DNA of 64,000 nucleotides from Prevotella illustrans. GTDB taxonomy: Bacteria; Bacteroidota; Bacteroidia; Bacteroidales; Bacteroidaceae. Below, piece after piece: positions 5,700 through 62,132 of this stretch (the stretch's first letter is position 1; every line of letters starts with the position of its first letter). Position numbers and translations under genes: made by a program. The notes under the pieces are model-generated. The model saw only the letters and a program-made list of their open reading frames with translations. It did no database searches and was not told the DNA's origin. The stretch spans positions 62,001-126,000 of the forward strand of contig NZ_JAERMS010000001.1 of the NCBI RefSeq assembly GCF_017426725.1, written 5' to 3'.

Positions 5700-6387
5700 G
5701 TTTGATGCCGTTACCCGATTCCGTAAAATTTTCGTAGAGACAAACTTCTGTCAAGCCCTGAATTATCTTTACATATACCATTCAAAAAGTGGCGTTATTC
5801 TGAAAAAGAAAAGAGTTGGACGAAAATAACGCGAAATTTCGCTACTTTATTAATCCGTTGAAAACCAGCCATTTAGCGTTTATCGCTTCATATTTTCCAT
5901 GCTCCGGACTTGCCAAAGCTATCCTTTCGCTTTGCAAAAGCAGCCCTTTTAGCGTGTGAAAGGGCAGCTTTGAGGAGGTAAAAGCAGCCCTTTGAGGGCC
6001 AAAAAGGCACAAAAACAACCCAAAAAGGCAGCAAATGGAGAAAGAAAACGTGGAAAAATACGAAGCAATGACAAATTTATCCTACTTTTAACACTTAGAT
6101 GACCCTATTTCAGAGGGCTTGGATTCTATCAAAATATCAGACAAAACAGCCACTTGGCGGCATTCAAAACGCGATCGGAAGGATAGATCTTTACGATTTA
6201 TAAGATTTTTTTCGTCTTTTGATAAAAAAAATAAGAAAACACTTGCGAGTTTCATTTATTTTAATCATATTTGCAGCGTGAAAACACTGTCTGCCTGTTC
6301 CTATATTTATTCCATGAAGACCGACAGACCCTGCTCGCATACTCAGATAGCTAATCTAAACATCGTATAACTCATAATAACACGCTT
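5700..6387. other. Long intergenic region without a credible gene
   Basis: About 690 bp between the tRNA terminator and the SusC start. It holds the 22-bp period palindrome array at 5915-6002 and an inverted repeat GCGTTATT (5792-5799) / AATAACGC (5825-5832). A weak -7-like box CATATTTG (6266-6273) may serve the SusC gene. An open frame at 6119-6370 has poor amino-acid composition and no recognisable features, so I do not call it. Confidence 0.6.
5915..6002. repeat. 22-bp period palindrome array, copy A (4 units)
   Basis: Four consecutive units start at 5915, 5937, 5959 and 5981. Each is a 13-bp near-palindrome (AAAGCTATCCTTT, AAAGCAGCCCTTT, AAAGGGCAGCTTT, AAAGCAGCCCTTT) plus a 9-bp linker. 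A degenerate AAAGGCA pair continues to about 6030. Confidence 0.9.
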
Positions 6388-24812: not shown

Positions 24813-25008
24813 AACAGGCATGAATTTGCCATGAAAATTTCGTACAAACCGCTCATTTATTTTGCGTCAGGATTTTTTTTGTCGCAAATAAGCCAAGCAT
24901 TTCGGTAGTTCGCGTAAATGCAATAAGTAATTGATAATCAGCGGTTTGGTAAAGTTAATGGCGTTTATGCGCATCGAAAACACCCCAAAACATCGAAAAA
25001 AGCACCTG

Positions 25009-25118
25009 AAAGCATAGCTTTTACCATGCAAAAGCGTCACTATGACCACGCGAAAGCATAGCTTTGAGCAGGCAAAAGGGCTGCTTTGACAACCTAAAAG
25101 CTATGCTTTGACCTCAGA
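25009..25118. repeat. 22-bp period palindrome array, copy B (5 units)
   Basis: Units start at 25009, 25031, 25053, 25075 and 25097, exactly 22 bp apart. Cores are AAAGCATAGCTTT, AAAGCGTCACTAT, AAAGCATAGCTTT, AAAGGGCTGCTTT and AAAGCTATGCTTT, with 9-bp linkers such as TACCATGCA and GACCACGCG. A degenerate unit lies at 24987. Confidence 0.95.
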
Positions 25119-25145
25119 GAAAGCGAAAAACGACCACATAAAAAA

Positions 25146-25177
25146 GTGAAAAACAGCTTTTCAACGCTGTTTTTCAC
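25146..25177. terminator. Bidirectional terminator-like hairpin in the dispersed repeat
   Basis: GTGAAAAACAGC (25146-25157) pairs perfectly with GCTGTTTTTCAC (25166-25177). A and T runs in the stem give U-rich tails on both strands, fitting its place between convergent genes. Confidence 0.6.
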
Positions 25178-25239
25178 TCTATTTGAAGTATTTTCGGAGG
25201 TCGTTTTTGTGACCGTATTTTTACATTTATCGCTCATTG

Positions 25240-25292
25240 TATTGTCTTTATGTATGAGCGGAACATGATAAATCATACCCCTACGGCTGGCG
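25240..25292 (+). repeat. REP-like palindromic element, copy 1
   Basis: A segment of about 50 bp (ATTGTCTTTATGTATGAGCGG, then AACATGATAAATCATACCCC, then TACGGCTGG) is repeated at 25481-25533 with two mismatches. The core ATGAT-AA-ATCAT can form a short hairpin. Confidence 0.8.
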
Positions 25293-25354: not shown

Positions 25355-25400
25355 AGCCGTAGGGGCGTGATTTATCACGTTCCGCATAATCGGAATACAT
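25355..25400 (-). repeat. REP-like palindromic element, inverted copy
   Basis: In reverse complement it reads ATGCGGAACGTGATAAATCACGCCCCTACGG. Compared with the other copies both arms of the core changed together (ATGAT/ATCAT to GTGAT/ATCAC), keeping the pairing. Confidence 0.78.
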
Positions 25401-25480: not shown

Positions 25481-25533
25481 TATTGTCTTGATGTATGAGC
25501 GGAACATGATAAATCATGCCCCTACGGCTGGTG
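25481..25533 (+). repeat. REP-like palindromic element, copy 2
   Basis: Near-identical direct repeat of 25240-25292, with the core CATGATAAATCATG fully paired. It lies just before the 3' end of the leftward lipoprotein gene. Confidence 0.8.
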
Positions 25534-36658: not shown

Positions 36659-36709
36659 TTCGGCTGCCGTCGGCCCCTTCATTCTCCACCCTTCACCCTT
36701 TGCTTTCCC

Positions 36710-36819
36710 AAAGCAGCCCTTTCAGCCTGCAACCGCTGTGCCCTTGCGTTGCAACCGCTGCCCTTTCGCACGGCAACCGCTGTGCTTTCAGCGGCCGAAA
36801 GGGCAGCTTTTGGAAAGCG
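36710..36819. repeat. 22-bp period palindrome array, copy D (5 units, GC-rich variant)
   Basis: Units start at 36710, 36732, 36754, 36776 and 36798. Outer cores are AAAGCAGCCCTTT and AAAGGGCAGCTTT; the three inner ones start ACCGCTG (ACCGCTGTGCCCT, ACCGCTGCCCTTT, ACCGCTGTGCTTT). Linkers are 9 bp, for example CAGCCTGCA and CGCACGGCA. Confidence 0.88.
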
Positions 36820-36876
36820 GTTGCCGTGCGCGTGTTTTTTTGCGGCGTTCTTTCGACAGATTCATATTATTTTGTT

Positions 36877-36884
36877 TACCTTTG
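36877..36884 (+). promoter_or_regulatory. Promoter -7 element for the beta-galactosidase gene
   Basis: TACCTTTG matches TAnnTTTG and lies 89 bp before the ATG at 36973, just after repeat array D. Confidence 0.5.
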
Positions 36885-36942
36885 CAGCGACCGGCCGCTT
36901 CGGCGTGTCCGCGGCCCATTTTCCAAACAAAAACATAACTGA

Positions 36943-42667: not shown

Positions 42668-42837
42668 CTCGTAATTTTTCTTAGGTCTCTGTCTAATTTC
42701 CCTATGAAAAATCTATACAAACCGCTCGTTTATTTTGCGTTAAGAAAAAAGTTTTCGCAAATAAGCCAAGCATTTGGGTAGTTGGCAGAAAAACAATAAG
42801 CTGTTGATAATCAGTGATTTGTTAGAAATGGCAGCTC

Positions 42838-42991
42838 AAAAGTTGAGTAAAAGCGGCCCAAAACATCAATAAAAACGGCTCAAAGCAGCCCTTTTACCTT
42901 GTCAAAGTATCACTATGACCATGCGAAAGCATAGCTTTTAGCGTGTAAAAGGGCTGCTTTTACCATGCAAAAGCTATGCTTTGACCCCGAA
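42838..42991. repeat. 22-bp period palindrome array, copy C (7 units)
   Basis: Units start at 42838, 42860, 42882, 42904, 42926, 42948 and 42970. The first two are degenerate (AAAAGTTGAGTAA, AAAACATCAATAA). The other five cores are AAAGCAGCCCTTT, AAAGTATCACTAT, AAAGCATAGCTTT, AAAGGGCTGCTTT and AAAGCTATGCTTT, in the same order of types as copy B. Confidence 0.95.
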
Positions 42992-42994
42992 AAA

Positions 42995-43051
42995 AGCGAA
43001 AAACGACAGCATGAAAGGATAAAAAACGGCTTTTCATCCTTGTTTTTCGCT
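42995..43051. terminator. Bidirectional terminator-like hairpin in dispersed repeat copy 2
   Basis: AGCGAAAAAC (42995-43004) pairs with GTTTTTCGCT (43042-43051), with an inner AAGGAT/ATCCTT pair. It is at the position matching the hairpin in copy 1. Confidence 0.55.
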
Positions 43052-43127
43052 CTAATTGAAGCATTTTTAGAGGCCGTTTTTGTGATAGGATTTTTACATT
43101 TTCTACGCCTTTCGTTCTCGGAAACGA

Positions 43128-51111: not shown

Positions 51112-51177
51112 AAAGGGTAACTTTGATATCGCGAAAGCTATGCTTTTACACGATAAAAGCAGCCCTTTTACCTTGCA
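51112..51177. repeat. 22-bp period palindrome array, copy E (3 units)
   Basis: Units start at 51112, 51134 and 51156 with cores AAAGGGTAACTTT, AAAGCTATGCTTT and AAAGCAGCCCTTT, and 9-bp linkers GATATCGCG, TACACGATA and TACCTTGCA. Confidence 0.88.
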
Positions 51178-61848: not shown

Positions 61849-61932
61849 TACCTCTACACCAATCGCTCGCAAAGGATTATGGAAAACAGCAACAGTATAT
61901 GGCTTACGGAGTGCATGGTGACCGTACGGTCT

Positions 61933-62020
61933 GGACACGTTTGTCCAATAAGTTGGACAGACGAGTCCAATGAGCTGGACAAATTAGTCTAATTAGTTGG
62001 ACAAATTGGTTCAATTACAT
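61933..62020. repeat. Tandem array, four 22-bp units (GGACA type)
   Basis: Units start at 61933, 61955, 61977 and 61999, each beginning GGACA and keeping a TC(C/T)AAT or TCAAT word. The first two contain inverted halves (GGACACGTTTGTCC, GGACAGACGAGTCC), which decay in the later units. Confidence 0.88.
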
Positions 62021-62040
62021 AAGTATTAAAGGTTTTTGGC

Positions 62041-62132
62041 GATCGTTCAGAGATAGTAATAATGATCGTTCTGAGGTAGTAATAACGACCGATCAGAGAT
62101 AATACAGACAACCGTCCAGAGATAGTAATAAC
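62041..62132. repeat. Tandem array, four 23-bp units
   Basis: Units start at 62041, 62064, 62087 and 62110: GATCGTTCAGAGATAGTAAT-type, GATCGTTCTGAGGTAGTAAT-type, GACCGATCAGAGATAATACA-type and AACCGTCCAGAGATAGTAAT-type. The shared core is CAGAGATAGTAATAA. The array ends 18 bp before the MMPL start codon, so it covers its leader. Confidence 0.9.

Follow-up and report, generated by a model that had tools for sequence, protein, structure and literature searches.

Five arrays of one design in the window

The window, that is, the whole 64,000-nucleotide stretch of the Prevotella illustrans genome analyzed here, contains five arrays of a 13-bp near-palindrome, AAAG-N5-CTTT, repeated on a 22-bp grid. 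Array 1 (5915..5993) comprises four full 13-bp units with the cores CTATC, CAGCC, GGCAG, and CAGCC; to its left lies a cap-like motif, TTGAAAACCAGCC (5858..5870), which by eye is a variant of the cap palindrome found at arrays 2 and 4 and is unmatched by our cap pattern. Array 2 (25009..25109) consists of five units, CATAG, CGTCA (arm CTAT), CATAG, GGCTG, and CTATG, and array 4 (42882..42982) also of five, CAGCC, TATCA (arm CTAT), CATAG, GGCTG, and CTATG, with one unit in each array matching 7 of 8 arm letters. Both are embedded in forward-strand copies of a larger element, subfamily B (24823..25228 and 42695..43101, with approximate borders that correspond to the span of the match), and both have the cap palindrome TTGATAATCAG in their leader (24931..24948 and 42804..42821, respectively). 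Array 3 (36710..36810) is degenerate, with full-arm units at 36710 and 36798 only (2 of 5), and its middle is formed by three ACCG-start units that match 4, 6, and 6 of the 8 arm letters. Array 5 (51112..51168) has three units, GGTAA, CTATG, and CAGCC. Arrays and cap motifs are given without strand.

An earlier note on this DNA had described five arrays sharing one design, namely a 13-bp near-palindrome starting AAAG and mostly ending CTTT followed by a 9-bp linker, and this holds: 17 of the 20 exact AAAG-N5-CTTT sites in the window fall inside the five arrays, and the reverse-complement core pairs claimed for them are present. All five are intergenic in the sense claimed, lying between long ORFs, with an 80-codon TTG-start ORF (36700-36942) overlapping array 3. 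The coordinates of the arrays required some revision, since array 4 starts at 42882 and not at 42838 (the rows at 42838 and 42860, previously taken as units, match only 4 of 8 arm letters) and array 3 is degenerate. The pattern is not reproduced by shuffled sequence: across 100 Markov-1 shuffles of the window, exact sites averaged 1.09 with a maximum of 4, compared to the 20 observed. The window has 11 exact sites followed at precisely 22 bp by a partner with 7 or 8 of the 8 arm letters, and none of the 100 shuffles contained such a site.

Other features were seen alongside the arrays. A palindromic repeat around GGAACATGATAAATCATGCCCCTAC occurs in three copies, one of them inverted (25260-25276, 25362-25379, and 25501-25517), and a similar sequence, GTAGGGACATAATTTATTATGTCC, stands in L329 where a related species has an array. 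Two adjoining tandem repeats of different sequence, with periods of 22 and 23, precede a possible start codon (61932-62132), and a MobA/VirD2-type relaxase gene (PF03432; 51413-52426) adjoins array 5.

A strict 22-bp period with conserved arms and species-specific cores

To describe spacing, we counted pairs from exact sites to partners matching 7 or 8 of the 8 arm letters. Across 441,586 bp of P. illustrans, window included, partners were found at 22 (41), 44 (34), 66 (11), and 88 bp (8), and none at 18-21 or 23-26 bp. The same period dominates in P. bivia (33 pairs at 22 bp, one at 23, and no others within 18-26) and in named contigs (331 at 22 bp, one at 21, five at 23, and one each at 25 and 26), although the latter were selected by the pattern itself, so that their spacing and arm counts are biased towards it. 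Overall, the 22-bp spacing was confirmed in six genome sets. The claim of repetition with no slippage is thus accurate for the P. illustrans genome, where 21 and 23 bp are both empty, but not elsewhere, where rare slips occur.

Conservation within the unit was assessed on 273 middle units, chosen only for having two exact outer neighbours and regardless of their own arms. All eight arm letters were kept in 237 of these, and the arms carry 1.66-1.97 bits per position across species, compared to 0.03-0.14 bits for core positions and 0.34-0.55 bits for the outermost three linker positions at either end. The linker is itself weakly dyad-symmetric, and the unit can be summarized as a 13-bp near-palindrome, AAAG-N5-CTTT, plus a 9-bp linker.

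Within one genome, the pattern is different: cores form a small lexicon and linkers are diverse. Core 5-mer entropy was lower than that of the linker-centre 5-mer in all nine genomes with at least 8 usable units (2.25 vs. 3.59 bits in P. illustrans, 2.48 vs. 4.45 in P. bivia, and a small gap of 3.20 vs. 3.46 in the related genome G316), a comparison that set aside G101 (n = 2, equal entropies) and G088 (n = 4, core lower). These lexicons are species-specific, with CATAG and CAGCC in P. illustrans, ATGAC and GTAAC in P. bivia, ATGCC in P. histicola, and TGCCA, GGGAA, and TTCAA in G374. Since copying of whole units would fix core and linker alike, a low-entropy core beside a diverse linker counts for a model in which the core is a recognized site. 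We also considered an operator centred on the linker, CTTTTRC-N3-GYAAAAG, as suggested by the outer linker letters conserved across species, yet the core is the low-entropy part within a genome, and we therefore rejected this candidate and retained a core-centred view with an extended half-site.

Broad but patchy distribution across Prevotella

Prevotella are major members of the human and ruminant microbiota, and many of their genomes carry up to hundreds of these short, mostly intergenic arrays, built on a common frame with species-specific inner letters. The earlier note had named absence from the rest of the genome as a point against its family; the two-unit pattern AAAG-N5-CTTT-N9-AAAG in fact matches 250 times on the forward and 246 times on the reverse strand of the 3.09-Mb P. 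illustrans genome, with no match for a reversed control. Related genomes, which the same note had proposed to scan, have it too: two-unit matches were detected in 112 of 398 sampled genomes of the GTDB genus (P. illustrans included), 31 of which had at least 30 matches, including 526 in P. histicola JCM 15637 and 73 in P. bivia DSM 20514. The reversed control matched in 27 of the 398 genomes, mostly 1-6 times (largest counts 143, 17, and 14), and is not a pure null, as it partly catches real 22-bp arrays: its matches correspond to the same AAAG arrays in another register in G367 and G384, whereas in G017, G117, G333, and G386 they are repeats of TTTC-N5-GAAA that likewise have a 22-bp period (those in G354 and G362 are unlisted).

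Among the matches listed in a scan of named genomes, most came from relatives of Prevotella and some from records of Bacteroides, Mediterranea, Leyella, and Xylanibacter. A stricter three-unit pattern was found in 3 of 393 sampled genomes of the order, namely P. illustrans, one other member of the genus, and G580, the only one to have it among the 390 sampled genomes from outside the genus. This last genome, from another family of the order, has six three-unit matches with words of its own (TTAGA and TCCAA), which suggests either horizontal spread or an older origin of the family. A link to phages at large was discarded, as the three-unit pattern occurred in only three stretches from two viral records.

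As to gene context, which was derived from a crude ORF caller, 80 of 96 arrays were extragenic (four of these at stretch edges) and 16 lay inside ORFs, mostly of ~100-160 codons and in three cases of >300. These 16 were unevenly distributed (0 of 41 in P. illustrans, 0 of 18 in P. bivia, 9 of 16 in G316, 4 of 7 in G374, and 3 of 14 in the G088 clade); in a second array set, 9 of 92 arrays were inside ORFs. Neither the 76 placed arrays nor the second set displayed a clear preference for gene orientation, and arrays roughly follow intergenic space: ++, --, +-, and -+ gene pairs held 23, 22, 17, and 14 of the 76, for intergenic-space shares of 0.29, 0.30, 0.20, and 0.21, respectively. Median distances were 225 bp to neighbouring 3-prime gene ends and 267 bp to 5-prime ends.

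Cap palindromes and larger elements surround some arrays

Several features go beyond the earlier note: the species lexicons described above, a cap palindrome, elements of 200-500 bp that enclose some of the arrays, and array turnover from one related genome to another. The TTGATAATCAG-type palindrome occurs near arrays well above expectation in P. illustrans (14 observed vs. 0.7 expected), P. bivia (5 vs. 0.41), and named contigs (22 vs. 2.38), and was rare or absent in other groups (0 at 21 G155-group arrays, 1 at 10 from G374, G101, and G341, and 1 at 7 from G107 and G016). In named contigs, the distance from the core centre to the cap is a multiple of 11, to within 1 bp, in 20 of 22 cases, whereas the P. 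illustrans caps, at -58, -79/-80, and -102 relative to the first strict core, are ~22 apart without falling on multiples of 11.

Several arrays are the central module of a longer repeat, with a leader and a tail around the tandem units. In P. illustrans, this is the case for subfamily A, of which 9 copies were aligned, and for subfamily B, which includes window arrays 2 and 4 plus two others. The four-copy alignment of subfamily B revealed a length difference of exactly one 22-bp unit, and the array 2 and array 4 elements are 76.8% identical over 413 columns. A repeat of ~425 bp similarly surrounds arrays in G155, G169, and G371, and P. histicola has a fixed frame near its arrays. Many other arrays have only the array in common, with no shared flanking element, and little is shared beyond the array itself in P. 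bivia, two metagenome bins, and P. illustrans as a whole.

A further element was observed in G374, a single contig of 2.73 Mb. Matches to four units plus AAAG number 80 in this genome and are distributed over the contig. In the 20 copies read, chosen from these 80 by place (264-1445 kb) and not at random, A/T-rich palindromic boxes mark the edges of an element of ~214 bp; a length of 214 bp was obtained for 7 of the 10 copies printed, in which the pattern recognized a box at either end, whereas in the remaining 3 it missed the outer right box. The left box was matched in 15 of the 20 copies, always at -80, and the cap centre stands at -27 in 15 copies and -28 in one. Between box and cap, the spacer is only 39% identical (across 27 copies) compared to 27-29% outside the element, and no length change is visible. 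No target-site duplication was seen by eye at the printed ends of 10 copies. The edge palindromes, at offsets -80, +98, and +120 (L396-L415), read for example TGTATATTTATGCA and, in one copy, TGAATATTTATTCA; their resemblance to ArgR operators is putative.

Arrays turn over between related genomes

G316, a relative of P. illustrans, is 94% identical to it over 16 kb of the window. Flanks of 10 P. illustrans arrays had matches in this genome, and eight places were read by eye, i.e., seven plus array 3 (the array at 51112, L061:18504, and L062:13061 were not among them). Array 3 is kept, with unchanged arms and changes in core and linker only. At the places of array 1 and of three further arrays, the G316 units are different ones, but CTTT/CTTC sites follow a 22-bp grid; two of these four places have left arms that are degenerate for the most part, and one also has steps of 23 bp. 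The remaining three places, those of array 2, array 4, and a copy of subfamily A, lack any 22-bp pair: no AAAG-N5-CTTT-type site is present at the array 2 place, and a single 7-of-8 site at that of array 4. The G316 place of the array 4 element (L369 11430-12300) has two short reading frames resembling a toxin-antitoxin pair (putative).

Array presence also varies in a second clade, where only two of the four species carry an array in a given intergenic region, and at another place, beside a gene-order break, an array common to two species has different cores. When scored in two orthologous pairs, the lexicon difference between P. illustrans and G316 was clear at only one of four arrays.

Phased protein sites as the favoured explanation

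The earlier note had offered both protein sites and strings of short RNA hairpins as explanations, and the protein-site option fits our data better. Hairpins of RNA or single-strand DNA, acting on transcripts or as structure signals, are attractive because AAAG can pair with CTTT in each unit, and predicted folding of array sequences is stronger than that of their dinucleotide-shuffled counterparts (mean z of -4.0 to -8.2 across five genome sets and both strands), though a palindromic unit yields a low z by itself. Adjacent cores in G107 are frequently the reverse complement of one another, which would allow long stems. However, among middle units with at least 5 of 8 arm letters, arm deviations were one-sided in 33 of 34 and compensated in 0 of 34. 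Across three genome groups, 306 pairs of neighbouring cores were almost equally often the same (57) and reverse complements (49), and most arrays mix core orientations (28 of 35 in P. illustrans, 12 of 17 in P. bivia, and 9 of 13 in P. histicola). Taken together, these three observations favour independent half-sites on DNA over base-paired stems. Core covariation, which the earlier note had proposed to measure, gave a divided answer in these groups. In pooled named-contig cores, complementary inner pairs exceeded shuffled values (0.512 vs. 0.302 and 0.458 vs. 0.275), an excess that pooling species of differing lexicons can inflate and that was milder when each distinct word was counted once (0.40 vs. 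0.27 and 0.37 vs. 0.26). They were instead below shuffled values at inner pair 2/4 in P. illustrans (7% of 71 unique units vs. 38%) and at inner pair 1/5 in P. bivia (25% vs. 47%). At the gathering score, Rfam matched only a tRNA in the window and nothing at the arrays. Overall, we consider a hairpin explanation improbable.

Two further explanations were considered. In the first, the arrays would be selfish, non-autonomous mobile elements, similar to MITEs or BIMEs but with an internal minisatellite; a transposase or recombination would spread the copies, arrays would gain and lose units in 22-bp steps, and the host would derive no benefit. The larger repeated elements around many arrays, the exact 22-bp unit difference between copies, the presence/absence at orthologous sites, the patchy distribution, and a described parallel in the same order (BrickBuilt, see below) all point in this direction. 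They have to be set against the lack of visible target-site duplications in the printed G374 copies, of a RAYT association, and of IS5-type ends, against the constant length of G374 elements despite a strongly diverged spacer, and against low-entropy cores beside diverse linkers, so that we regard a purely selfish origin as unlikely, if a serious contender. Ordinary cis-signals of neighbouring genes, i.e., terminators, promoters, or operators of one regulon, would be in keeping with mostly intergenic arrays at the median distances given above, but gene-pair orientations roughly track intergenic-space shares, copies run up to hundreds per genome, and arrays are lost or rewritten between related genomes; this is the explanation to which we give the least credence.

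What we observe is a unit with a defined anatomy, exact spacing, conserved arms, and a species lexicon, subject to turnover in both presence and units between related genomes. As a tentative explanation, with a likelihood just short of even, we favour dispersed repeats carrying phased sites for a putative dimeric, oligomerizing DNA-binding protein with a role in chromosome architecture. Arrays would then be the central module of a dispersed, mostly intergenic repeat family, and the protein, which we infer along with its dimeric state, would read the AAAG half-sites and the two inner letters beside them. A distance of 22 bp between sites would place all dimers on nearly the same face of the DNA, and phased A/T runs may bend it, so that a short array could form a compact nucleoprotein body; such a site would more probably serve chromosome architecture than switch a single gene. 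Consistent with this, a wedge model with assumed parameters predicted stronger curvature for arrays than for their shuffled versions in 62 of 63 cases (30/30, 13/13, 13/13, and 6/7). Drift or co-evolution of the protein that reads them may account for inner words that differ by species.

We count in favour of the phased-site model the combination of exact spacing, conserved arms, predicted curvature, and uncompensated arm changes, as well as the four G316 places with an array-like grid of other units, the fixed box and cap offsets around a diverged spacer in G374, and the lack of a clear gene-orientation preference. Against it, we count whole elements missing at orthologous places, the sameness in G374 and in G155, G169, and G371, much of which is plain copying of a larger element, the arrays inside ORFs, the rare 21- and 23-bp steps, the pooled complementary inner pairs, and a lexicon difference between P. 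illustrans and G316 clear at one of four arrays. A patchy presence (112 of 398 genomes in the genus and, for the stricter three-unit pattern, 1 of 390 outside) would also be odd for a general architectural protein. A more specific version, in which recognition by the putative protein drifts by species while arms, spacing, and many positions persist and inner words are rewritten, appears rather doubtful to us; under such drift, the arms too have perhaps been rewritten in some genomes, as in the TTTC-N5-GAAA arrays of the same period. If a protein binds the arrays, species words on a fixed frame would represent a natural series for studying how a protein and its site change together. If none does, they would still be a sizeable family of repeats, seemingly without a description in the open-access literature searched and relevant to intergenic annotation and assembly.

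Comparison with known repeat systems

The earlier note had known of no described family that matches, and similarly we recognized no description of the AAAG-N5-CTTT 22-bp family in the open-access literature searched, a scope outside which subscription papers and preprints fall. Its exclusion of CRISPR is upheld: CRISPR arrays combine identical repeats with unique spacers of similar length, whereas the units here differ and linkers are only 9 bp. Iteron arrays of plasmid origins consist of ~22-bp direct repeats bound by a protein, and thus resemble the Prevotella arrays in period, but the latter occur at up to hundreds of loci per genome and have symmetric units.

REP/BIME elements, and REPINs with their RAYT, are high-copy extragenic palindromes in composite, regularly spaced repeats (PMC2817692, PMC3116915, PMC3733652). 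Prevotella arrays are likewise high-copy palindromes in arrays, and mostly extragenic (80 of 96), but their unit is short (22 bp), its outer letters being conserved and its inner ones free, and the 306 neighbouring pairs do not follow the alternating orientation of REP/BIME. An association with RAYT was rejected, as Y1_Tnp (PF01797) was found in 9 of 21 array-rich vs. 12 of 21 array-free genomes, with no such gene in P. illustrans, G374, or P. histicola.

The closest parallels come from Porphyromonas gingivalis, a member of the same order. Tandem direct repeats of 22 nt were described earlier in strain W83 and are named in PMC4596501; we liken them to the Prevotella arrays by period alone. The same source describes the BrickBuilt MITE, with a 23-nt unit, AGAYCATARTATCCTCTCRTRTG, IS5-type ends, e.g., GAGACCTTTGCA, and 19 copies per genome. 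IS5-type ends at the Prevotella arrays are at chance level: ends similar to GAGACCTTTGCA (up to 2 mismatches) were found 3 times within 600 bp of 41 P. illustrans arrays vs. 2.9 expected, and 3 times in the window vs. 4.96 expected. BrickBuilt is the nearest described element that we met. Both consist of short units in tandem without spacers, within a larger intergenic repeat with leader and tail (in Prevotella, for subfamilies A and B and the G155-type and G374 elements), and they differ in unit sequence, period, and ends, with 22-bp AAAG-N5-CTTT-N9 units and mixed cores in Prevotella compared to the 23-nt brick in P. gingivalis.
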